Shown: one piece after another, positions 1,722 through 11,338 of the stretch
Position numbering within the stretch: position 1 is the stretch's first letter
Layout of the letters: each line of letters opens with the position of its first letter
NCBI GenBank assembly: GCA_003222155.1
Contig: QHUU01000072.1
Span: forward strand, 1-41,877
Origin: Gemmatimonadota bacterium
GTDB taxonomy: Bacteria; Gemmatimonadota; Gemmatimonadetes; Gemmatimonadales; GWC2-71-9
Direction: 5' to 3'
Length of the DNA stretch: 41,877 nucleotides
Notes under the pieces: generated by a model
What the model saw: the letters and a program-made list of their open reading frames with translations, nothing else
Database searches by the model: none
Told to the model about the DNA's origin: nothing
Program-made: the position numbers and the translations under genes

Positions 1722-1775
1722 AACGAACCCTCCCGGCCGTCGGGGCCGGCCGTTAGGTTAGCGCGGAGGCCGCCC

Positions 1776-3521
1776 GTGCCCCCTCTCAGCCGGCTCACTC
1801 GCATGCTGGTGGCGATCGCCGCCGCGTCGTTCCTGGCGATCGTGCTGGCCTATTTGCGCACCCCAGCCGATCGGGCGGGGCGCACCCTCGCCGCCGCCGC
1901 GCTGATCGGCGTCGCCGTGGCGATCATCGGCGTCTGGTTCACGCATTCGTTGCGCGCCAACCGACGCTACGCGGCGCTGCTCGAGAACGAAGTAGCGAGT
2001 CAGACCCGATCGCTCATGGATTCGCTCGCGGCCACCGCGGCCGCGGAGCGCAACCTGCGGCTCGTCATGGACGCCGTGCCCGATGCTATCGTCGTGGTCG
2101 ACCGCGCCGCCACGATCCTCGAGGCGAACGAGCCGGCGCGCGGCATGGGGGCCATCCCCGGTACCACGCAGCGGCCCAGCCTGTTCGACGTCGTGAATCC
2201 CGATGCCATCGGCGTCGTGCAGGAGAAGCTCGGCGCCGCCTTCGAGGGCGACGTCCAGCACCTCGAAGTCCCGCTGATCCGTGCCGACTCGAGCCACGGC
2301 ATTGCGGCGTTGCTGTACGCGCCGGTGCGAGACGGAAGCAAGATCACTCGCGTTCTCATTCTTGCGCGGGACGTCACCGACCAGCGACGCAGCGAGTCGC
2401 AGTACCAGCAGGCGGAAAAGCTGGCCGCCCTGGGCCAGCTGGTGAGCGGGGTCGCCCACGAGATCAACAACCCGGCGGCCATCATCTCGGGCTTCGCCCA
2501 GACCCTGCTGCTCGACGAGCTCAAGCCCGAGCACCGCGACATGCTCCAGATGATGTACGATGAAGCCACCCGTATCGGGCGCATCACGTCCAGCCTCCTG
2601 GCGTTCGCCCGAGCAGGCGGCAAGCAGCGAGGCCTGGTAGATCTGAACGACATCGCCCGCCGCACGTTCGCGCTGCGCTCCTACTACCTCTCGACGCTCA
2701 ACATCACGGTCGCGCTCGACCTCGATCCCAGCGAGCCCAAGATCTGGGCGGACGCCTCCGAGCTGCAGCAGATGCTGCTCAACCTGCTGATCAACGCCGA
2801 GCAGGCGCTCCTGACCGTCGAGCGGGCCCGCACCATCACCGTGCGCACCCGCGCCGACGAGAGCGACACGCGGCTCGAGATCGCCGACTCGGGCCCGGGG
2901 ATCCCCGCCGAGCTCCGCACCAGGATTTTCGATCCCTTCTTCACCGCCAAACCGGAAGGGGTGGGCACGGGGCTGGGGTTGTCGATCTGCTACGGCATCG
3001 CGCGCGACCACGGCGGCCGCATCTGGGTGGAGTCGGAAGCCGCCGGGGGCGCCCGATTCTGCGTGTTGCTGCCGCGGGACCAGCGCGAGGAAGCCCGCGC
3101 CCCCGCTGTCACCACGCAGCCCTCCCCCGCCGCCACCGGCCGGCTTGCCGTGCTCGTGGTGGACGACGAAGTGGCGTTGCGCGAGGCGCTGCTGCGCTTC
3201 CTGCAGCGCCGTGACATCCACGTCGAGGGCGTCGCCGACGGCTGGGAGGCGATCCGGCTGCTCGAGCAGCGCGCCTTCGACGTCATCATTTCCGACGTCC
3301 GGATGCCGGGGATGAGCGGACGGGAGTTCCTGGAGCGGCTGCGCCGCGATCGGCCCGATCTCGTCACGCGCCTGGTGTTCAGCACCGGCGACGCCTTCAC
3401 GCCGGAAACGGCCACGCTGCTCAAGGAGTCCGGCGTGCCCACCGTGGCCAAGCCGTTCGATTTCGCCGTGCTCGAGCGCGTCGTCCGCGAGGTCGCCGGG
3501 CGCGCTACGGCCTCGGCGTGA
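1776..3521 (+). CDS. Hybrid sensor histidine kinase with PAS and receiver domains
   Basis: This protein has 581 residues from the GTG at 1776, which has GGAGG six bases upstream; the ATG at 1803 (572 residues) is the alternative. Two hydrophobic segments near residues 10-30 and 38-55 leave almost no extracytoplasmic loop, so sensing is probably within the membrane or cytosol. A PAS domain follows (about 85-195). The HisKA domain carries the phospho-acceptor His228 in GVAHEINNPAA. The ATPase domain has the N box NLLINAEQAL and glycine boxes DSGPGIP and GTGLGLSICYGI. The C-terminal receiver (about 458-575) has VVDDE, phospho-acceptor Asp507 in SDVRMPGMSG, and the Lys in AKPF. No separate response regulator is adjacent. 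The 3' end overlaps the convergent usher gene by 17 bases. Its target is unknown; regulation of the neighbouring fibre genes is only a possibility. Confidence 0.88.
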   Translation: MPPLSRLTRMLVAIAAASFLAIVLAYLRTPADRAGRTLAAAALIGVAVAIIGVWFTHSLRANRRYAALLENEVASQTRSLMDSLAATAAAERNLRLVMDAVPDAIVVVDRAATILEANEPARGMGAIPGTTQRPSLFDVVNPDAIGVVQEKLGAAFEGDVQHLEVPLIRADSSHGIAALLYAPVRDGSKITRVLILARDVTDQRRSESQYQQAEKLAALGQLVSGVAHEINNPAAIISGFAQTLLLDELKPEHRDMLQMMYDEATRIGRITSSLLAFARAGGKQRGLVDLNDIARRTFALRSYYLSTLNITVALDLDPSEPKIWADASELQQMLLNLLINAEQALLTVERARTITVRTRADESDTRLEIADSGPGIPAELRTRIFDPFFTAKPEGVGTGLGLSICYGIARDHGGRIWVESEAAGGARFCVLLPRDQREEARAPAVTTQPSPAATGRLAVLVVDDEVALREALLRFLQRRDIHVEGVADGWEAIRLLEQRAFDVIISDVRMPGMSGREFLERLRRDRPDLVTRLVFSTGDAFTPETATLLKESGVPTVAKPFDFAVLERVVREVAGRATASA

Positions 3522-6105
3522 GCTCGACCTCGAGACCGGAGGCTCCCACGCCGTTCGGCGTAGGCACGAGCGTCACCCGCAGCGGCGCGGCGGTCGCCCG
3601 CAGCGCGTCCAGCACCGCGGCGTCGACGGTCAGGTCGTAATCGCCCGGCTTCACCCCCAGCACGTAGAACGCCCCGTCGCTGAACGTGGTGAAGCGCTGC
3701 CCGGCGCCTCCCGTGCGCCGGTCGGTGAGCCGCAGCGTCACACCGGGCACCCCCACGCGCCGACCGCCCACGTCGCGGCTCACACGGCCTTCGACGACGC
3801 CGGCCGCCACGACGGGAATGTTCAGGCCGCGGAAGCGGTTGGGGCCGGGCTCGAGCAGCGCGCTCGCGAACGCCGGCACGAGCAGCGGCGAGGACAGAGA
3901 CAGCGAGTCGACCTGTACGCTGACGGGCTCGAACGGCACGATGTCCCACACGCGGAACGCGCCGTCCGAGTCCGAGACGGCGGTGCTCGTGCCCACGCGC
4001 ACGCGCACGCCCGGGATGCCCCGCTCACCCGGGTTCTGCAGGCCGTCCGCGTTCTCGTCCAGGAAGACCCGCCCGGATACGCCCGACCGCTCGAGCGAGG
4101 GGCCGGGCGCCGTCGTGAGCCGACCCGTCGCGCGGTCCCACAGTAGCGACCCCTGCACGTACTGCGTTCCGCTGACGGTGCCACCGGCGGGGGCGCTCAC
4201 CGTGGTATACGACCGCACGGCCGAGAGGTAGGAGGTGAACGAGAGCGAGAGCACCGGCCCGGCCGATCCCCGGAGCCATGTGACCCCCGCCTCGACCCGC
4301 AGCCCCGCACCCACGGGGCGCGCGGCGAGCAGTGAATACGACGACAGGCGGAGCGGGCCGTCCGTCTCGATCTCGCCACCGCCCCGCAGCCAGATCGGCC
4401 CCAGCACCCGGCCGAGCGCCGGGCGCGGCAGGACGAAGGCGCTCGCGCCCGCGAACCACCGGGTCATCCCCGGTACGCCGGCCGGGGCGTCCCGCTCGAA
4501 CCGGACGAAGGGTAGCGCGCGCACCGCCTGCCCCTCGGTCGAGCTCTCGACGCGCACGAGGGTCGTCGCGCCCATGAGGCTCGTCTGGCGGTCGAGCGTC
4601 CCGTCGAAGAAAAAGAAGCCCGCCCGGCGGATCGGCCGCCAAAATCCGAACAGCAGCAGCCGCGAGCGCGCACCGGGCGTCGTGAGGAGGGGCGCGACGG
4701 TAGCGCCGGCGTAGCGGGTGTATTCCGCGGTCACGCGTCGGTCGATGGACGGCTCGTAGCGCAGGCCCGCCCGCGCGAACGCCGCGGTGACGCCGTCGAG
4801 GGTGACCGTCCAGGTGGTCGTCGGACTGCCCACGACCGACGCGTACGCGTGGGTCAGGTCGGGCAGCGTGTCACGCCAGAATCGATCGAGCCCGCCCCGC
4901 ACGGTCCACCGGTCGCTCACGCCGTAATGCAGATCGACGTTGGCGGTGGCACCGCACCGCGTGCCGCGGCACGAGCCGGCCGAGACGCCGTACTCGAACC
5001 GCCCGGCAGGCAACAGCTCGTCCGCGACGCGGAAGGTCTGGTTGAAGTCGCGGATCTCGCCCAGCGGCCCGTAGGCAACGAAGTCCACGGGGTTCTCCCC
5101 GTACCGCACGGGAACCGGCAGGCTGAATCGCCCGGTGGCGTCGACCGAATCGAAGCCCAGGAGCTCCCCGCCGCGGTACGCCTCGACCGACCATCCACCG
5201 CCCGGCTCGAGCGCGCCCTGGTAGCGCTGGATCCCGACGAGGGAGGGACGGACGAACGGTGCATTGGTGATGGAGACACCGCGCAGCGAGCGCGGCGCTG
5301 GCCCCGTGGACACGCCGTCGCCCAGACGTAGCTGTTCGAGCCAGCGGTTGTCGCGCCACACGCCCGTCCACGAGCCGGCGATCTGCACCACGCCGTCCGC
5401 CGCCCGCCCGACGCTCGCGGCGCTCAGCTCGAGTGAGCCGCCGAACGCGTCCGCTCCCAGCGCCCCCGTGTACCCGCTGCCCGCGAGCGGGTCGCCGCTG
5501 GGCGCAAGCAGCGTGTAGTCGAATACCAGGCCGTCCCAGCGCGGGTGCTCCGCCGCGAGCAGCAGATCCGGACGCGTCGTCTCGCGCGGCCGGAGCAGCG
5601 CCGTCCGGGCCGCCTCGCGACGCAGCCGGCGCGCCACCGGCAGGTCGCCCGGATCGGCCATTGTCACCGTGAGCTCGGAGAAATCGACGACGAACGGCGA
5701 TCCCACCAGGTCGCCCAGGCGCTCGGCGCCCACGTACAGCTCGCCGTCGCGAAAGCTCCGGTACTCGGGCTCCAACCGCACGCGCCGCGCGCCGTAGCTC
5801 ATCGTATCGCCGCCCGCGTCGATCACCAGCCGCCGATTTCCCGGGTCCACGGTCGCCTCGACCCGGCCGGCCGCGCTCAAGCGGTAGCGGATCTCGGCGA
5901 GCTGCAGGAACTGGGTGAGCGGCACGAGGACTTCGGTACGCACCCGCCATGCCGCGACGGTACGACCCGCGACATGCCCGAGGCGCAGCTCCACGAGGAT
6001 GGGCTCCGCCGTATCGGCCCGGGCGGGCCGCTGGGCGGCCGCCACGGCGGCGCCGGCCACCGTGAGCCACAGGGCGACCCGCGTCGCGCGCCAAACCGGT
6101 GCCAT
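3505..6105 (-). CDS. Usher-like outer-membrane protein with C-terminal SdrD_B/carboxypeptidase-regulatory-like domains
   Basis: This 866-residue protein has a Sec signal peptide ending near AAAQRPARA. The start ATG at 6105 lies three bases after the stop of the upstream subunit gene. The first 160 residues look like a soluble domain. The middle (about 190-640) is rich in alternating hydrophobic/charged strands typical of a beta-barrel, with an insert resembling an usher plug: YRGGELLGFDSVDATGRFSLP, followed by RYGENPVDFVAYGPLGE. Such wording is familiar from fimbrial ushers (PapC/CooC class). The C-terminus carries two Ig-like repeats: GRVFLDENADGLQNPGE (calcium-loop type, as in SdrD_B) and GRVSRDVGGRRVGVPGV. 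It would export and anchor the fibre subunits encoded just upstream. The usher assignment rests on context plus sequence style; a TcfC/CooC-type alternate usher is the best comparison, and a classical FimD match is not obvious. Confidence 0.68.
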   Translation of the reverse strand: MAPVWRATRVALWLTVAGAAVAAAQRPARADTAEPILVELRLGHVAGRTVAAWRVRTEVLVPLTQFLQLAEIRYRLSAAGRVEATVDPGNRRLVIDAGGDTMSYGARRVRLEPEYRSFRDGELYVGAERLGDLVGSPFVVDFSELTVTMADPGDLPVARRLRREAARTALLRPRETTRPDLLLAAEHPRWDGLVFDYTLLAPSGDPLAGSGYTGALGADAFGGSLELSAASVGRAADGVVQIAGSWTGVWRDNRWLEQLRLGDGVSTGPAPRSLRGVSITNAPFVRPSLVGIQRYQGALEPGGGWSVEAYRGGELLGFDSVDATGRFSLPVPVRYGENPVDFVAYGPLGEIRDFNQTFRVADELLPAGRFEYGVSAGSCRGTRCGATANVDLHYGVSDRWTVRGGLDRFWRDTLPDLTHAYASVVGSPTTTWTVTLDGVTAAFARAGLRYEPSIDRRVTAEYTRYAGATVAPLLTTPGARSRLLLFGFWRPIRRAGFFFFDGTLDRQTSLMGATTLVRVESSTEGQAVRALPFVRFERDAPAGVPGMTRWFAGASAFVLPRPALGRVLGPIWLRGGGEIETDGPLRLSSYSLLAARPVGAGLRVEAGVTWLRGSAGPVLSLSFTSYLSAVRSYTTVSAPAGGTVSGTQYVQGSLLWDRATGRLTTAPGPSLERSGVSGRVFLDENADGLQNPGERGIPGVRVRVGTSTAVSDSDGAFRVWDIVPFEPVSVQVDSLSLSSPLLVPAFASALLEPGPNRFRGLNIPVVAAGVVEGRVSRDVGGRRVGVPGVTLRLTDRRTGGAGQRFTTFSDGAFYVLGVKPGDYDLTVDAAVLDALRATAAPLRVTLVPTPNGVGASGLEVELTPRP

Positions 6106-6108
6106 GAA

Positions 6109-6633
6109 TTACAGGTAGGCGATCGTGACGATGATCGTGCCCGTGTACACACCGGGCTTCGCCGTGGCGGCGGGGGTCACGGTGCCGCCGATCCACAGGT
6201 AGATGTACGGGTTGGCAGGAGGCCCGAGCTTGCCCGTGGTTCCGCCGCTCGGGTCGAAGGCGGTCGCGCCTGCCACGTTGTTCGTCGCCCGGTTCCAGCG
6301 GGCCGACGTGGCCCCGAACGACACCGGCATCGTGCTGCCGGGCAGCGCCTGAATGTTCGTCAACAGCGCCGGAAGTACGAACGTGATGGTCACGTTGGCG
6401 TTCTTGCTGCCCTGGATCTGCCACGCCCCGGCGCCGGCCGCCGTCGGCTGCACAGTGGTGGCGACGCCCTTCGGCACGCTCCCGAAGTTCAGGTTGCTCA
6501 AGGTGGTGATGGTCAGCACCGGGCCGATGACGTTCGCGTCGATGCCGACCGATCCGCCCACGCCTTGCGACAGGCCGGGGCGCGGCACGAGCAGCCCGAG
6601 CAAGAGCACGGCGACGAGACGCGGTCGCGACAT
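6109..6633 (-). CDS. Secreted DUF4402-like fibre subunit (third subunit)
   Basis: This 174-residue protein has a signal peptide (MSRPRLVAVLLLGLLVPRP, cleavage near GLSQ). The mature part begins with a strand, then LNFGSVPKGV, and ends with GVYTGTIIVTIAYL. The pattern 'LsFGsv.pG' near the start and 'aGsYtGtitltv.y' at the end is shared with the two other small proteins of this operon and is the hallmark of DUF4402-type pilin-like proteins. Its start overlaps the stop of the chaperone gene by one base (TGATG), and the usher gene follows three bases after its stop. Placement between chaperone and usher suggests an adaptor or tip subunit. An asparagine-rich stretch (SKNANVTITF) and a Pro/Gly-rich loop distinguish it from the other two. 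Confidence 0.72.
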   Translation of the reverse strand: MSRPRLVAVLLLGLLVPRPGLSQGVGGSVGIDANVIGPVLTITTLSNLNFGSVPKGVATTVQPTAAGAGAWQIQGSKNANVTITFVLPALLTNIQALPGSTMPVSFGATSARWNRATNNVAGATAFDPSGGTTGKLGPPANPYIYLWIGGTVTPAATAKPGVYTGTIIVTIAYL

Positions 6634-7460
6634 CACGGGACGCGGACCTCGACCGAATCGCGGACCGGCGGGCTCGGCAGGACCAGCTCGGGAGCCAGAT
6701 CCTCGCGGGCGGTGGACAGATCGAGCCGCAGCCGGTAGCGGCCGGGAGCGAGTGCGCCGATGGGAAGCGCGTAGCGCGGCTCCATCGTGTAGTAGACGCC
6801 GATCGGCGCCTTCATCTCGGCGAGCGTCTTGCCGGTCGAATCCACCAGCGCGGCATGCGCGCTGCCGATGTAGGCGGCGTTCCCCTGCTGCGTCAGGCGG
6901 GCCCACACGGCGAGCGAATCTCCCACCACCGCCGTGCGCAGCCCGGACAGGGAGATGCCCGTGTGCACCGCGCCCTTGCGGTAGAATACGCCGATGATCG
7001 TGCGCACCTCGAGCGTGAGCCCGACCCTGACCTTGGCGGTGTCGGCCACGCCCGTCACCGGGAGCTGACCCCCCTTGGCCGAGATCACGAGACGCGCCCA
7101 GTATTCCCCGTCGGCAAGGCCCGGGGGCGGACTCGCGAGAAGGCGGATCGTCTGGCGCTCGAGCGGCGGCACGGTGAGGCGGCGTGGGAACGCTTGAATC
7201 CAGCTCGCCGCGGACGGACTGGTCGAATCGGGATGCTCGACCGTGCGCACCACGATAATGCCGGCGGAGTCCGTCGCCGGGTAGCCGAAGAAGAACGAAA
7301 TGGCTACCTCCACGGGCTCGGTGTTTGGGTTGTACAACAGCACCGCGCCGCTGCGCGTCCGCGCGTCCATGAACACCGCATGGGGGGCGATCACCACACC
7401 CTGCCCAGCGAGCGGCGCGGCGCCCCACAACAACGCGAGCGACAGCCCCGTTCGCTTCAT
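6633..7460 (-). CDS. PapD-like periplasmic pilus chaperone
   Basis: This 275-residue protein has a signal peptide (MKRTGLSLALLWGAAPLAG, then Q). The N-terminal half has features of an Ig-like pilus chaperone: VVIAPHAVFMDARTRSGAV, then LLYNPNTEPVEVAISF (first beta sheet), and QAFPRRLTVPPLERQTIRLL, which corresponds to the conserved edge strand and the phrase where chaperones set the cleft. A second Ig-like domain follows from about residue 150. It would hold subunits in the periplasm by donor-strand complementation and deliver them to the usher. The ATG at 7460 overlaps the TGA of the upstream minor-subunit gene by four bases (ATGA). It is somewhat longer than the usual 220-240 residues of PapD/FimC, mainly at the C-terminus. 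Family placement is moderately sure; the functional role follows from context. Confidence 0.72.
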   Translation of the reverse strand: MKRTGLSLALLWGAAPLAGQGVVIAPHAVFMDARTRSGAVLLYNPNTEPVEVAISFFFGYPATDSAGIIVVRTVEHPDSTSPSAASWIQAFPRRLTVPPLERQTIRLLASPPPGLADGEYWARLVISAKGGQLPVTGVADTAKVRVGLTLEVRTIIGVFYRKGAVHTGISLSGLRTAVVGDSLAVWARLTQQGNAAYIGSAHAALVDSTGKTLAEMKAPIGVYYTMEPRYALPIGALAPGRYRLRLDLSTAREDLAPELVLPSPPVRDSVEVRVP

Positions 7461-7921
7461 GGGAACGCCGTCAGGTTGAGGGTAATTGTCCCGGTGTAGG
7501 AGCCAGCACGCTGTGTGGGCGCAGGACGCGCGGTGGCGCCGAGGAACACGGACCCGCGTCCCTGCCCGCTGAAGGTCATGAGGAACGGCTGCTTCGGGTC
7601 GAAGCCGATCTGACTGCCGATGTTCTGCGACTGCGAGAACCCCGCGTCGCTCCCGGAGAAGGTGAGCGGCAGCGTGGCGCCCGCCGGTCCCGTCAGTACG
7701 GACGGCAAGGTGAACGTCAGCCGCCCCTGGGTGTCGTGGGGGCCGCCCACGTCGAACCGCCCGCTCTTTACGGCGTCGGTGCGCGACACGACCGACGGTA
7801 TCCCGGGGATGAGCGTGCCGAACGTGAGAGACTGGATGCCCGTCACCGTGAGCGGACGCTGACCGGCGAGCGGCACAACGGCCGTGGCCGACAGCAACAA
7901 TGCGTACCGCAGACCTCTCAT
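7457..7921 (-). CDS. Secreted DUF4402-like minor fibre subunit
   Basis: This 154-residue protein has a short signal peptide (MRGLRYALLLSATAVVPLAG). The mature sequence contains SLTFGTLIPGI, then VKSGRFDVGGPHDTQGRL, and ends with RAGSYTGTITLNLTAFP. The 'FGtl.PG', 'GRFDV.G' and terminal 'GSYTGTItL' phrases match those of the major subunit at 8010-8513, so the two are paralogues. The ATG at 7921 has GGGAGG six bases upstream; longer readings lack such a site. The gene follows a strong stem-loop (7944-7978) that separates it from the major subunit gene. It lacks the Ser/Thr/Asn-rich central part of the major subunit, which fits a minor or initiator role. Confidence 0.72.
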   Translation of the reverse strand: MRGLRYALLLSATAVVPLAGQRPLTVTGIQSLTFGTLIPGIPSVVSRTDAVKSGRFDVGGPHDTQGRLTFTLPSVLTGPAGATLPLTFSGSDAGFSQSQNIGSQIGFDPKQPFLMTFSGQGRGSVFLGATARPAPTQRAGSYTGTITLNLTAFP

Positions 7922-7943
7922 CGCGGGCCTCCCGTGCGTGGCA

Positions 7944-7978
7944 GCGCCGGCAGAGGACCATCCAGCCTCTGCCGGCGC
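7944..7978 (-). other. Perfect 13-bp intercistronic stem-loop after the major subunit gene
   Basis: Positions 7944-7956 are exactly complementary to 7966-7978, leaving a 9-base loop. No T-run follows on the minus strand, so this is not a standard intrinsic terminator. It lies inside the operon, between the major subunit and the minor subunit. A smaller inverted repeat (7983-7988 with 8004-8009, ACAGCC/GGCTGT) sits next to the major subunit stop codon. In known fimbrial operons, stem-loops at this place protect the abundant subunit message or reduce read-through, so major subunit exceeds assembly proteins. Confidence 0.7.
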
Positions 7979-8009
7979 GGCGACAGCCAAACTTATGCGA
8001 AAAGGCTGT

Positions 8010-8513
8010 TTAGTACGACACCGTGAGCGTCACCGTACCGGTGTAGCTGCCGGCCGGTAGGTTGCTCGGGGGCGTCACCGTCGCGCCGACGAAGACATAC
8101 AGCGCGCCACCGGCGCTCAAGGTAGCGCCCGCAGGTGTCGCCGAGGGCGTGATCGCCGAGCCACCCGCCGTCGAGTTGGCGGTGTTCAGGTAGCCGGTCC
8201 ACGAGCCAATCGGCAGGTTATTGCCGCTGCTGGTCAGGTTGGTGGGCAGCGTGAACGAGTACGTCACCGCCGCGCTCCCCTGGCCGGTCACGTCGAAGCG
8301 ACCGCCGTTGGTGGCGTCGCTGTAAGCGATGGTCTTCGCCACACCGGGGAAGACGTTGCCGAACGCCAGGTTCTGGGCGCCGGTCACCGTGATGGGCGAC
8401 TGCACCGTCGCCGTCGCCGTGATGCTGCCGTTCACGCCTTGTGCGCGGACCGCAGCGGTCGCGACCAGCCCGAGGACGAGCGTGGCAAGCGCGGCTTTGG
8501 AAGCAGTGTACAT
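8010..8513 (-). CDS. Major DUF4402-like fibre subunit (pilin-like)
   Basis: This 167-residue protein is the first gene of the minus-strand fibre operon. A signal peptide (MYTASKAALATLVLGLVATAA, cleavage near VRAQ) is followed by GSITATATVQSPITVTGAQN, then LAFGNVFPGV, GGRFDVTGQGSAAV, a central Ser/Thr/Asn/Gly-rich region, and a C-terminal strand NLPAGSYTGTVTLTVSY. The low charge, high Thr/Ser/Gly content, and N- and C-terminal beta strands are typical of donor-strand-exchange subunits. The ATG at 8513 is preceded by a purine-rich GGGGGAG at 7 bases. It is first in the operon and followed by a stable stem-loop, which suggests it is the most abundant product. It is related to the proteins at 7457-7921 and 6109-6633. 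DUF4402 membership is recognised by pattern only. Confidence 0.75.
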   Translation of the reverse strand: MYTASKAALATLVLGLVATAAVRAQGVNGSITATATVQSPITVTGAQNLAFGNVFPGVAKTIAYSDATNGGRFDVTGQGSAAVTYSFTLPTNLTSSGNNLPIGSWTGYLNTANSTAGGSAITPSATPAGATLSAGGALYVFVGATVTPPSNLPAGSYTGTVTLTVSY

Positions 8514-8559
8514 GCGGCGTCTCCCCCTATCTGTCGTGTGATATAGCGCTTACAGCCAA

Positions 8560-8597
8560 GAGGCGCGTGCGCCTCGAATGCGTTGCGTCTACGCAAC
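8560..8597. promoter_or_regulatory. Twin 16-bp palindromes, 22 bp apart, in the fibre operon leader
   Basis: GAGGCGC-GT-GCGCCTC occupies 8560-8575 and GTTGCGT-CT-ACGCAAC occupies 8582-8597. Both are exact with 7-base arms and a 2-base centre, and their centres are 22 bp apart, about two helical turns. They lie between a possible minus-strand promoter (8614-8642) and the start of the major subunit gene. They could be two operators on one DNA face, or two hairpins in the mRNA leader. Confidence 0.55.
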
Positions 8598-8613
8598 AGG
8601 CAAGGGGCATGCC

Positions 8614-8642
8614 ATAGTGGTTGTTTTCTTGACAATCGTCAA
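8614..8642 (-). promoter_or_regulatory. Candidate sigma-70-like promoter of the fibre operon
   Basis: Read on the minus strand, TTGACG (8642-8637) is followed after 17 bases by CACTAT (8619-8614). The -35 matches five of six consensus bases; the -10 only three. The region overlaps the inverted repeat TTGAC-AATC-GTCAA, whose other half gives TTGACA on the plus strand, so the site could serve as an operator too. It would give a leader of about 90 bases containing both twin palindromes. Confidence 0.35.
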
Positions 8643-8816
8643 TGTTTTATACAGTCAGGACATCACCTGCTACGTTAAGACGCCCAACAGTTTAGCGCCT
8701 GCAACCGGACTGACTGTCACGATATTTGACGTCAGCACAGCTCGCATACGCCAACGCCGAGCACAGTAAGTTATTGTAGTGGAGGTGCTTAGAGACGTTA
8801 GCCTCGAGGTACGGAC

Positions 8817-8837
8817 CGTGCCTTACGAGAAGGCACG
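8817..8837 (+). promoter_or_regulatory. Leader hairpin upstream of the small secreted protein gene
   Basis: CGTGCCTT (8817-8824) pairs exactly with AAGGCACG (8830-8837) around a 5-base loop, ACGAG. It ends 18 bases before the ribosome site GGAG at 8858-8861, so it would sit in the 5' leader of the gene at 8869. There is no T-run after it. Confidence 0.5.
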
Positions 8838-8868
8838 ATACATGGCCTTGACCCCGAGGAGCACCAAG

Positions 8869-9180
8869 ATGGCAAACCGACGTCGTTCAGTACTCACTCG
8901 CGTGGTCGTGGCCGGCCTTCTCTTCGGTGCCGCCTGGTTGGGGCGGCCGATCAATGCAGAAGCCCAAGTCCGTGGCACGCTGCAAGTAAGTGCACAAGTC
9001 GTTGATACGAAGGCGAGCTTCGAGGGCCTGAACGCGGCCCGCGTCGCGCTGCGCCAAGCCGCGGCTGGCACACAGGTCGTGAACCTCGATACTGTCTCAA
9101 CACTGGCGCAAGTAAGCGTCGCCCGGCTTCCGCAGGGCCGCTCGGACTTGGTTGTCACGGTCGACTACTCGAAGAACTAG
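8869..9180 (+). CDS. Small secreted protein, divergent from the fibre operon
   Basis: This 103-residue protein is not assigned to a family. A twin-Arg-like basic start (MANRRRS) leads into a hydrophobic stretch VVVAGLLFGAAWLG and a likely cleavage site after INAEA. The mature 70 residues begin QVRGTLQVSAQVVDTKAS and end RSDLVVTVDYSKN. The alternating strands and the terminal 'LVVTVDY' are reminiscent of the C-terminal strand of the fibre subunits across the intergenic region, but there is no clear DUF4402 pattern. The ATG at 8869 has GGAG seven bases upstream; an in-frame ATG at 8842 would add nine residues without a ribosome site. The shared control region suggests a role with the fibre, for example as terminator or regulator subunit, but this is inference. 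Confidence 0.65.
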   Translation: MANRRRSVLTRVVVAGLLFGAAWLGRPINAEAQVRGTLQVSAQVVDTKASFEGLNAARVALRQAAAGTQVVNLDTVSTLAQVSVARLPQGRSDLVVTVDYSKN

Positions 9181-9631
9181 GCCGGCGGATCGACAGGATC
9201 GCCGAACACCATCACGACACCCCTGAGCCAGCGGGGGCGTGACGGAGGCGATGCAGCCTGAGGTAAGGCACTCTATGCGAGCAGCGGACTCCCCTTGGAG
9301 CGGCGGTCGGGGATGAGTCGACGGGGCGCGAGCGCGCGCCGCGGGGCCCGCCGCCGCTCGCCCTTCGAGCGCCGTTCCGACCCGGAGCGGCGCTCGTCGG
9401 GTACCGGGGTCTTCCCCTGGCGCCGCTCCGAGCGCGACCGGCGGTCGACGCCGGAGCGGCGGTCGTCGAGTTGACGGCGATCGTCACGGCTGCGACGGTC
9501 GGGCAATGGCTCGTAGCCGATGGGATCCTCTCCGGAACCGCTGATCGGGGCCCAAACCTAGTGGCCCCCGGGCTGCCCGGCTAGGGCCCCGGCCGCGGTG
9601 CGGGTCCCGCTGCGCTAGATTGCGCCACGCG
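9181..9631. other. Largely uncharacterised 451-base interval
   Basis: Apart from a possible Arg-rich ORF on the minus strand (9273-9506), no gene is convincing here. The stretch 9290-9500 repeats variants of CGGCGGTCG and GAGCGGCG. The stretch 9541-9600 is an extremely GC-rich run of imperfect palindromes (GGCCCCCGGG, GGGCCCCGG). TAGATT at 9616-9621 resembles a -10 box about ten bases before the kinase ATG, which has no ribosome site; a leaderless transcript is possible. Confidence 0.4.
9273..9506 (-). CDS. Possible small Arg-rich repeat protein (DRRS/ERRS motifs)
   Basis: This frame encodes 77 residues beginning PDRRSRDDRRQLDDRRSG and repeating D/E-R-R-S units about every 5-9 residues, with roughly eight copies of 'RRS' or 'RRQ'. 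The only available start is TTG at 9506; a purine-rich GGAGAGGA lies about 20 bases upstream, which is too far to be persuasive. Small proteins with repeated DRRSG-type motifs do occur in many environmental bacteria, but their function is not known to me. Another minus-strand frame (9212-9487) also stays open, as expected in very GC-rich DNA. The evidence is the coherent acidic/basic repeat in one frame only. It could be a nucleic-acid-binding peptide or simply repetitive DNA. Confidence 0.35.
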   Translation of the reverse strand: MPDRRSRDDRRQLDDRRSGVDRRSRSERRQGKTPVPDERRSGSERRSKGERRRAPRRALAPRRLIPDRRSKGSPLLA

Positions 9632-11338
9632 ATGACCTCTGCCACGTCTCCCGCCGAGCTGCTCGAGGGCGTCGTGCGGGCGCTCGAGCCCGCCTTCCGC
9701 ATCGACCGGCTCGTCGCCGCGACGGCCGAGCGCGTGGTGTACCACGCCTGGGACCGCGTGCTCAAACGGCACGTGGCGCTGTATGCGCACCTCGCGCCCG
9801 ACGTACCGGGGCGCGCCTGGTTCCTGCGGGAGACCGAGACCCTCGCCGCGCTCGACCACCCCACGATCCGCCACGTGTACGCCGCGGCCATCGCGGGGAG
9901 CCTCGCCTACCGCACGACGAATTGGGTGGATGGGGAGAGTCTCGCCGACGCGCTACGGCGGGGGCCGCGGCCCATCCCGACCGCCCACATGCTGGTGCGC
10001 GATCTGCTCAGCGCGGTCGAGCATGCACACGCCCGCGGCGTGATCCTGCGCCGGATCGTGCCGCTGACGCTCATGCTCGAGGTCTCGGGTCGCGCCGTGA
10101 TCACGGACCTGCGCTACGCCAACTGGTGCCTCCCCAACGTCCCGCCCGAGGAGCGAGGGGCGGGAGGCGCCTTCGTCGCGCCGGAGGTGCGCGCCGGGGG
10201 CCCCGGCGAGCCGGCGAGCGACGTGTACGCCGTAGCGGCCCTGGTCTATTACGTGCTCACCGGCCACGAGCCGGACGCGGACCCGGCGCGGGTGGTGCCG
10301 CCGCGGCAGCTCCGGCCCGCCGTGCCGGCGGCCCTGGAGCGGGTGCTGTTGCGCGCCCTCCAGGCCGTGCCGGCCGGCCGCTACTACACGGCGACGGAGA
10401 TGCTCGAGGACTTCGTAAGCGACGCCGGTGTGTTTCAGGAGCCGGCGGCGACGCCCCCGCTGGCAGAAGCGGGCTTCGAGCGACGGCTGCGACGCGCCCT
10501 GGGAGACGACTACGAGCTGCTGGAGGAGATCGGCACGGGCGGATTCGGGCGGGTGTATCGGGCGCGCGATCTCGGGCTCGAGCGCGACGTCGCGATCAAG
10601 GTGCTCCACCCGTCGCTCACGGCCGATGCCGCCGTGACGGAGCGGTTCCGCCGCGAGGCGCAGCTCGCGGCGCGGCTGCGGCACCCGAGCATCGTCAGCA
10701 TCTACGACATCATGGGCCGGGCCGGCCTGCAGTGGTATACGATGGAGCTGGTGCCCGGCACGAACCTGGCGCAGCTGGTCCAGGCGCAGGGTCCGCTGTC
10801 GGTGGAGCAGACCGTGCGCGTGCTCGATCAGGGGCTCTCGGCGCTCGAGCACGCGCACGCACTCGGGCTGGTGCATCGGGACCTGAAACCGGAGAACATG
10901 CTGATCGAGCCCGACGGGCGGCTGCGCATCACCGATTTCGGGCTGGCCCTGGCGCTGCGTGGCGACGGGCGGTTCGGCGGCGCCACCTCGCGCAGCGGCA
11001 CCCCCCAGTTCGCGGCGCCGGAGCAGCTCCTGGGCGAGCGCGTCGACCAGCGCGCGGACCTGTACTCGCTCGCCGCGGCGAGCTATTTCGCGCTCCTCGG
11101 CCGGCCCCCGTTCGAGGGACGCACGCCGGAAGCGATCCTGGCCCGCCAGACGACCGATGACCTCCCACCCCTCACGGACGCCCGGCACGACGTGCCGCGC
11201 GAGCTGGAAGAGGTGCTGCGCCGGGCGCTCGCGAGCGATCCGGGGGCTCGCTACCAGACAGCGACCGCGTTCCGGGAGGCGGTGCGGCGGTCCCGCGGGT
11301 TGCTGCGCCGGCTCGGGGCGGTGCTGCGAGGGGAGTGA
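9632..11338 (+). CDS. Tandem pseudokinase-Ser/Thr kinase fusion
   Basis: This 568-residue protein has two protein-kinase folds. The C-terminal one (about 294-560) is complete: glycine loop IGTGGFGRVYRARD, Lys323 in VAIKVL, HRDLKPENML with Asp417, DFGLA with Asp435, then GTPQFAAPE and DLYSL. The N-terminal one (about 23-265) keeps the outline (RETETLAAL helix, FVAPEV, SDVYAVAALVYYVLTG) but lacks the working residues: the VAIK Lys is Tyr51 in VALY, HRD is replaced by ILR (VILRRIV), and DFG by DLR. It is therefore a pseudokinase, probably regulatory. No transmembrane segment or PASTA/sensor domain is present, so it acts in the cytosol. The ATG at 9632 is chosen; a TTG at 9620 adds four residues. 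The next gene downstream is a cupredoxin, with no obvious functional link. Confidence 0.9.
   Translation: MTSATSPAELLEGVVRALEPAFRIDRLVAATAERVVYHAWDRVLKRHVALYAHLAPDVPGRAWFLRETETLAALDHPTIRHVYAAAIAGSLAYRTTNWVDGESLADALRRGPRPIPTAHMLVRDLLSAVEHAHARGVILRRIVPLTLMLEVSGRAVITDLRYANWCLPNVPPEERGAGGAFVAPEVRAGGPGEPASDVYAVAALVYYVLTGHEPDADPARVVPPRQLRPAVPAALERVLLRALQAVPAGRYYTATEMLEDFVSDAGVFQEPAATPPLAEAGFERRLRRALGDDYELLEEIGTGGFGRVYRARDLGLERDVAIKVLHPSLTADAAVTERFRREAQLAARLRHPSIVSIYDIMGRAGLQWYTMELVPGTNLAQLVQAQGPLSVEQTVRVLDQGLSALEHAHALGLVHRDLKPENMLIEPDGRLRITDFGLALALRGDGRFGGATSRSGTPQFAAPEQLLGERVDQRADLYSLAAASYFALLGRPPFEGRTPEAILARQTTDDLPPLTDARHDVPRELEEVLRRALASDPGARYQTATAFREAVRRSRGLLRRLGAVLRGE

Follow-up and report, generated by a model that had tools for sequence, protein, structure and literature searches.

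A probable chaperone–usher pilus locus of a divergent, DUF4402-based branch in Gemmatimonadota

The DNA analysed here, referred to as 'the window', is a stretch of 41,877 nucleotides from a soil Gemmatimonadota bacterium (assembly GCA_003222155.1; QHUU01000072.1, positions 1 to 41,877). It is contig 19 of a 3.45 Mb genome in 130 contigs, a genome with a single usher of the DUF4402-branch kind described below. The minus strand of the window carries, from position 8513 down to 3505, a tight operon of five genes in the order subunit A, subunit B, chaperone, subunit C, usher. All five are present in the order that an earlier note on this DNA had given (major subunit, minor subunit, chaperone, third subunit, usher). 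Subunit A, the probable major pilin (8010–8513, minus strand; 167 aa), has a signal peptide, an N-terminal extension of 24 residues before the conserved motif L.FG, and a DUF4402 domain; the stretch SITATATVQ, within the extension, is its candidate donor strand. Subunit B, the probable tip subunit (7457–7921, minus; 154 aa), has 11 residues from mature start to L.FG, without a donor-strand extension. It is followed by a predicted PapD-like, two-domain periplasmic chaperone (6633–7460, minus; 275 aa), by the minor subunit C (6109–6633, minus; 174 aa), which has a 25-residue N-terminal extension and a DUF4402 domain, and by the predicted outer-membrane usher (3505–6105, minus; 866 aa). There is a 4-bp overlap between the genes for subunit B and the chaperone, and one of 1 bp between those for the chaperone and subunit C; 3 bp separate subunit C from the usher, and 88 bp separate subunit A from subunit B.

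The A–B gap holds a perfect 13-bp inverted repeat (GCGCCGGCAGAGG ... CCTCTGCCGGCGC; 7944–7978, minus strand; z −3.0), possibly an element of mRNA stability or attenuation placed between the major subunit and the rest of the operon. The stem-loop is strong in the window, and stems of 11–15 bp occur in the subunit-gene gaps of four relatives; because most relatives have none, the stem-loop is not a defining part of the locus. A search of window positions 3000–10000 with Rfam found nothing.

Divergent from the operon is the gene for a small secreted protein (8869–9180, plus strand; 103 aa). The earlier note had taken the locus to run from 3505 to 9180; the operon does reach 3505, but it begins at 8513, and the remainder to 9180 contains this separate gene, of which the note made no mention. 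The protein carries the motif RGTLQ..A.VVDT ... VVTVDYS.N, and its place beside the operon is kept in about a dozen relatives. It is at most a possible relative of the subunits, because in a profile comparison with them the alignment is confined to the signal peptide and start region (22 columns, probability 70). On the other side, what looks by eye like a hybrid sensor kinase (a histidine kinase with a receiver) occupies 1758–3521 on the plus strand, convergent with the usher gene, whose 3' end it overlaps by 17 bp; it may regulate the operon or lie next to it by chance.

Chaperone and usher

The 275-residue protein is predicted to be a PapD-type periplasmic chaperone. The earlier note had made this identity depend on two Ig-like domains, and its AlphaFold2 model, which is of high confidence (pLDDT 89.1), is a two-domain sandwich. 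The best Foldseek match to the model is CsuC (5d6h, E 1.9e-9), and VIA ranks SfaE, YadV, CupB2, FimC and CsuC level, at Z 13–14, in alignments that take in both domains (residues 20–270). Sequence profiles see less: PapD_N of Pfam scores only E 0.23 with the chaperone, below its cut-off, and is found at E up to 1 in 11 of 33 chaperone relatives (best E 2e-4). The carboxylate anchor of CsuC is formed by Arg89, Tyr196 and Arg174 (PMC4654587). R123, which is invariant in the present family, and Y223, which is conserved at 90% or more, lie at positions that may suit such an anchor and are candidate counterparts. Two other resemblances were discarded. PDB sequences, searched with single proteins and with profiles, yielded nothing of use: a match of the chaperone profile to the abrin A-chain (E 0.006) covers 59 residues of an unrelated fold and is due to chance, and WxL-interacting protein has the chaperone fold in common (Z 13.6), but its operon partners differ.

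The 866-residue protein is predicted to be an usher. Its AlphaFold2 model (pLDDT 88.8) begins with an N-terminal domain, followed by six strands, by an insert of five strands (residues 289–345), by about nineteen more strands—25 strand segments around the insert, where an usher barrel has about 24—and by two C-terminal sandwiches. These parts can be placed on the minus strand as follows. The N-terminal periplasmic domain (5656–6006; residues 34–150) lies outside the VIA alignments, which start at residue 176, and is read from the model alone. The beta-barrel (4135–5538; residues 190–657) is aligned to FimD 139–656 and PapC 146–636. The plug-like insert (5062–5247; approximately residues 287–348) follows the sixth barrel strand, which is also the position of the plug in PapC and FimD. 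The two C-terminal beta-sandwich domains (3505–4092) contain matches to SdrD_B (679–716) and CarboxypepD_reg (771–831). FimD and PapC account for all of the first 15 Foldseek matches in the PDB (E 6e-26 to 7e-13). VIA Z scores are ~18–21 to ushers, and those to other barrels do not exceed ~17; 355 residues align to the FimD translocation domain at 4.5 Å. The long alignments have a high rmsd (~9 Å), as expected if the domains are placed differently. The prediction is of an usher barrel with a plug-like insert, not of the plugless non-usher barrel that the earlier note named as a refutation.

The matches to SdrD_B and CarboxypepD_reg are the only ones that the usher has in Pfam. The Usher family itself (PF00577) has none, and touches only 2 of 38 relatives (best E 0.0014); PapC_N, PapC_C, TcfC and CooC_C match none of 38 ushers, and NCBIfam matches none of the five proteins of the operon. 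Run against PDB sequences, the usher profile finds only SdrD/NOMO-like domains, again at the C-terminus. The SdrD_B-like repeats that the earlier note regarded as a peculiarity of this usher do exist, but they are probably not additions, because all ushers have two C-terminal domains at this site and EcpC of E. coli also has a sub-cut-off match to CarboxypepD_reg there. A gram-positive SdrD-type adhesin was rejected as an identity for the protein, of which only the C-terminal domains resemble SdrD.

Occurrence in other genomes

Profiles built from this branch detect the usher in 78 of 390 Gemmatimonadota genomes, about one in five, and the chaperone in 80 of 390. In an equally large sample of the phylum, PF00577 finds an usher in 2 of 390 (the E. 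coli control was found), which bears out the earlier suggestion that the branch is unusual. Searched as a single sequence, the window usher matches 102 of 395 genomes of the phylum, some of them via the common C-terminal domains only. Both chaperone and usher occur in 73 genomes, counting those with both coordinates. The usher lies directly downstream, on the same strand, in 71 of 77 strong chaperone loci; of the six exceptions, two are near contig ends and four are in a single genus, g38 (G021, G023, G191 and G300), where usher and chaperone of the branch sit on different contigs and are apparently unlinked. The earlier note had asked whether related genomes have the same gene order, and they do: most of 36 fetched loci read subunit(s), chaperone, optional subunit, usher, and a gap of ~50–130 bp sets the first subunit gene apart in most operons. 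Since more than 30 other loci have the same set of genes in the same order, the five-gene locus is not a chance arrangement. The closest usher, ~95% identical, is in a Gemmatimonadetes MAG (G111; QHUT01000035.1). A separate, archaic-type pilus operon is present in another genome of the phylum (G069; L124:4167-8783), and comprises an SCPU subunit, a chaperone, a 785-aa usher and a two-domain subunit.

The most unusual form that we observed is one in which chaperone and usher are fused. In 4 of 30 genomes of genus g37, both are encoded in one open frame (L068:1125-4532, plus strand; L065:2214-5906, minus; L120:2328-5846, minus; L121:3401-6913, plus); in the other genomes of the genus the two genes are separate. 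The fused proteins of G289, G395 and G249 are 47–54% identical to that of G366 over nearly their whole length, with no stops. Between the second domain of the chaperone and the N-terminal domain of the usher runs a Pro-rich linker, which varies in length; a second signal peptide is not visible. A divergent single subunit precedes each fused gene and a two-domain subunit follows it. The fusion supports a functional link between chaperone and usher, and offers a way of testing whether the chaperone must diffuse freely for assembly to proceed.

Nor is the branch confined to Gemmatimonadota; it spans phyla. In the alpha-, beta- and gamma-proteobacteria, plasmids of Sphingopyxis, Polaromonas and Pseudoalteromonas carry a DUF4402/chaperone/usher trio that agrees with the window operon in subunit family, gene order and kind of usher. 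Scored with the branch profiles, the plasmid ushers give E 2e-48 to 5e-94 and the plasmid chaperones E 8e-19 to 3e-26. By these measures the plasmid trios belong to the same branch. Their annotation is piecemeal—'DUF4402' (absent from one), 'molecular chaperone', and 'carboxypeptidase regulatory-like' or similar—and, apart from one label of 'fimbria/pilus periplasmic chaperone', they are not named as pilus systems. One contig from Krumholzibacteriia also holds the full set. An usher homologue in Novosphingobium (L114:5964-9884; 1306 aa) has ~430 extra residues before the usher match. A Cetobacterium plasmid carries a subunit match (30% identity, E 2e-3) that has neither a chaperone nor an usher annotated beside it and was set aside.

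Subunits and proposed assembly

The assignment of the subunits to the DUF4402 type, made in the earlier note, agrees with profile searches: against PF14352 (cut-off 25.2 bits), A scores 31.8 and C 29.9, while B, at 23.2, falls just under, and 37 of 38 aligned subunit homologues match the family. The Spore Coat U profile, SCPU (cut-off 22.4 bits), gives 10.1 for A, 9.2 for C and nothing for B, so that the three do not qualify as Spore Coat U proteins; it matches 4 of the 38 homologues weakly (best E 0.0019). Two shared motifs had been described. The first, 'LsFGsv.PG', is real in A (LAFGNVFPG) and B (LTFGTLIPG), and in C reads LNFGSVPKG, with PKG instead of PG. The second, the final strand 'aGsYtGTitLtv', is common to all three (AGSYTGTVTLTV in A, AGSYTGTITLNL in B and PGVYTGTIIVTI in C). 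Counterparts of subunit C are present in only part of the relatives.

Two kinds of N-terminus can be distinguished in the subunit alignment. The subunit encoded immediately before the chaperone has 7–18 residues from its mature start to L.FG in 29 of 29 scorable operons, without the 20–28-residue extension found in most other subunits. In these others the distance is 13–28 residues (median 24), and the difference is marked (Mann–Whitney p 9e-14, a value that overstates the independence of related operons, which share ancestry). Two of the non-adjacent subunits are short, at 13 and 17 residues. Mature starts were set by a simple A/G/S-Q cleavage rule, and two operons were not scorable. Polar and apolar residues alternate in the extension (e.g. 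SITATATVQ of subunit A). In Csu pili, an N-terminal extension of alternating polar and apolar residues (CsuA/B) is the donor strand, and its removal stops polymerisation (PMC4654587). The subunit sequences appear to follow the same pattern, with an N-terminal donor strand on all but the tip, and the short N-terminus of the chaperone-adjacent subunit is what donor-strand assembly predicts for a tip subunit; on this basis B would be the tip, and A the subunit that polymerises. Some relatives encode two-domain DUF4402 subunits (L068:4535-5461, L067:9557-10501 and L065:1219-2217), in which the first domain is without the extension and the second has one that is donor-strand-like. They look as if a tip and the next subunit had been fused, which would fit the same logic.

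We are confident that the locus is a complete chaperone–usher pilus locus of a divergent branch with DUF4402 subunits, and none of the observations contradicts this. The gene set, its order and its co-conservation are observed, as are the two classes of subunit N-terminus, and to these are added the predicted folds of chaperone and usher; donor-strand exchange, the order of subunits in the fibre and a visible fibre as the outcome are what we infer. Subunits A, B and C would be exported by Sec, and the chaperone would cap each of them by lending a beta strand. Each pair of chaperone and subunit would then dock at the usher, and there the chaperone strand would give way to the N-terminal extension of the subunit that comes next. 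Because B, without an extension, could only accept a strand, it would sit at the tip; A, with its extension, would polymerise behind it; and C, also with an extension, might be an optional adaptor, base or terminator. By analogy, we would guess that the fibre serves in adhesion or biofilm.

Two alternatives can be set against this. The 866-residue protein might be some other outer-membrane barrel, such as a TonB-dependent receptor or a porin, with secreted Ig-like proteins as incidental neighbours, and it is true that Pfam sees only its generic C-terminal domains and that homologues are recorded as 'carboxypeptidase regulatory-like'. We consider this extremely improbable, since the model fits ushers across barrel, insert and C-terminal domains, the gene adjoins that for the chaperone in nearly all loci, and the two are fused in some genomes. 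Alternatively, the machine might be chaperone–usher-like yet export something other than a long fibre: a layer resembling a coat or capsule, or short assemblies of the tip only. Chaperone–usher systems that make amorphous or capsule-like polymers exist (e.g. Caf1), and subunit numbers vary among the relatives; on the other side, an extension-bearing subunit that comes first, set off by a gap in most operons, is what an abundant polymerising subunit would be expected to look like, although this is not decisive. We judge that outcome unlikely, and prefer a pilus. A pilus locus would suggest a function for DUF4402, a domain family of unknown function, and an usher identity for proteins that databases file as 'carboxypeptidase regulatory-like'. 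The disparity between PF00577 and the branch profile in Gemmatimonadota further implies that pilus machines are more widespread beyond the well-studied groups than has been estimated.

Relation to other chaperone–usher systems

Profile–profile comparisons with hhalign, in which shuffled controls give E 0.2–0.8, relate the branch to the archaic parts of G069 (usher E 9e-5 over 705 columns, chaperone 9e-5, subunit 3.6e-6) and less closely to E. coli proteins (EcpB chaperone E 6e-4, FimD 0.023, EcpC usher 0.27, FimC none). Among the classes tried, all three parts thus appear closest to the archaic (sigma) systems, yet clearly apart from them. The locus might then simply be a divergent archaic system of the Csu class, with DUF4402 another name for Spore Coat U-type subunits. 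The greater nearness of all three parts to the G069 system than to Fim or Ecp, CsuC as the chaperone's best fold match, and the weak SCPU matches in a few subunits speak for this possibility, which we take seriously while leaning against it. In G069 the archaic parts score well over their Pfam cut-offs (Usher 61.5, PapD_N 49.5 and SCPU 99.9 bits), whereas the DUF4402-branch parts do not. Moreover, proteobacterial DUF4402 ushers join the window branch in hhalign at E 1e-29 to 7e-46, which argues for a distinct group that spans phyla. We propose tentatively, as a view on which we are almost evenly divided, that DUF4402 systems are a further chaperone–usher class, apart from classical, alternative and archaic, present in at least three phyla and missed by the usual models, and that an usher-tethered chaperone evolved in one Gemmatimonadota genus. 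If that is true, the tethered chaperone cannot diffuse to fetch subunits. Archaic systems have been listed in proteobacteria, Cyanobacteria and Deinococcus-Thermus (PMC4654587); within the open-licence literature, no paper was found that mentions DUF4402 or that joins chaperone–usher systems with Gemmatimonadota.

Set against the known classes, the window operon shares with classical type 1 and P pili (FimD/FimC, PapC/PapD) the predicted folds of usher and chaperone, and differs in that PapC_N and PapC_C fail to match the ushers of its branch, of which Usher matches next to none. With the alternative (alpha) class, represented by EcpABCD of E. coli, it shares a likeness of chaperone profile and a CarboxypepD_reg-like usher C-terminus; EcpC has both TcfC and CooC_C, which the branch ushers lack. 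The archaic (sigma) class (e.g. Csu of Acinetobacter) is alike in its kinds of gene, chaperone fold, alternating-residue extension and usher architecture. Its subunits are SCPU where those of the window are DUF4402, and the window usher and chaperone fall under Pfam cut-offs that the archaic system of the same phylum passes. Unlike archaic Csu, operons of the window type have a short, single-domain subunit, the putative tip, directly before the chaperone, and often another subunit after it.
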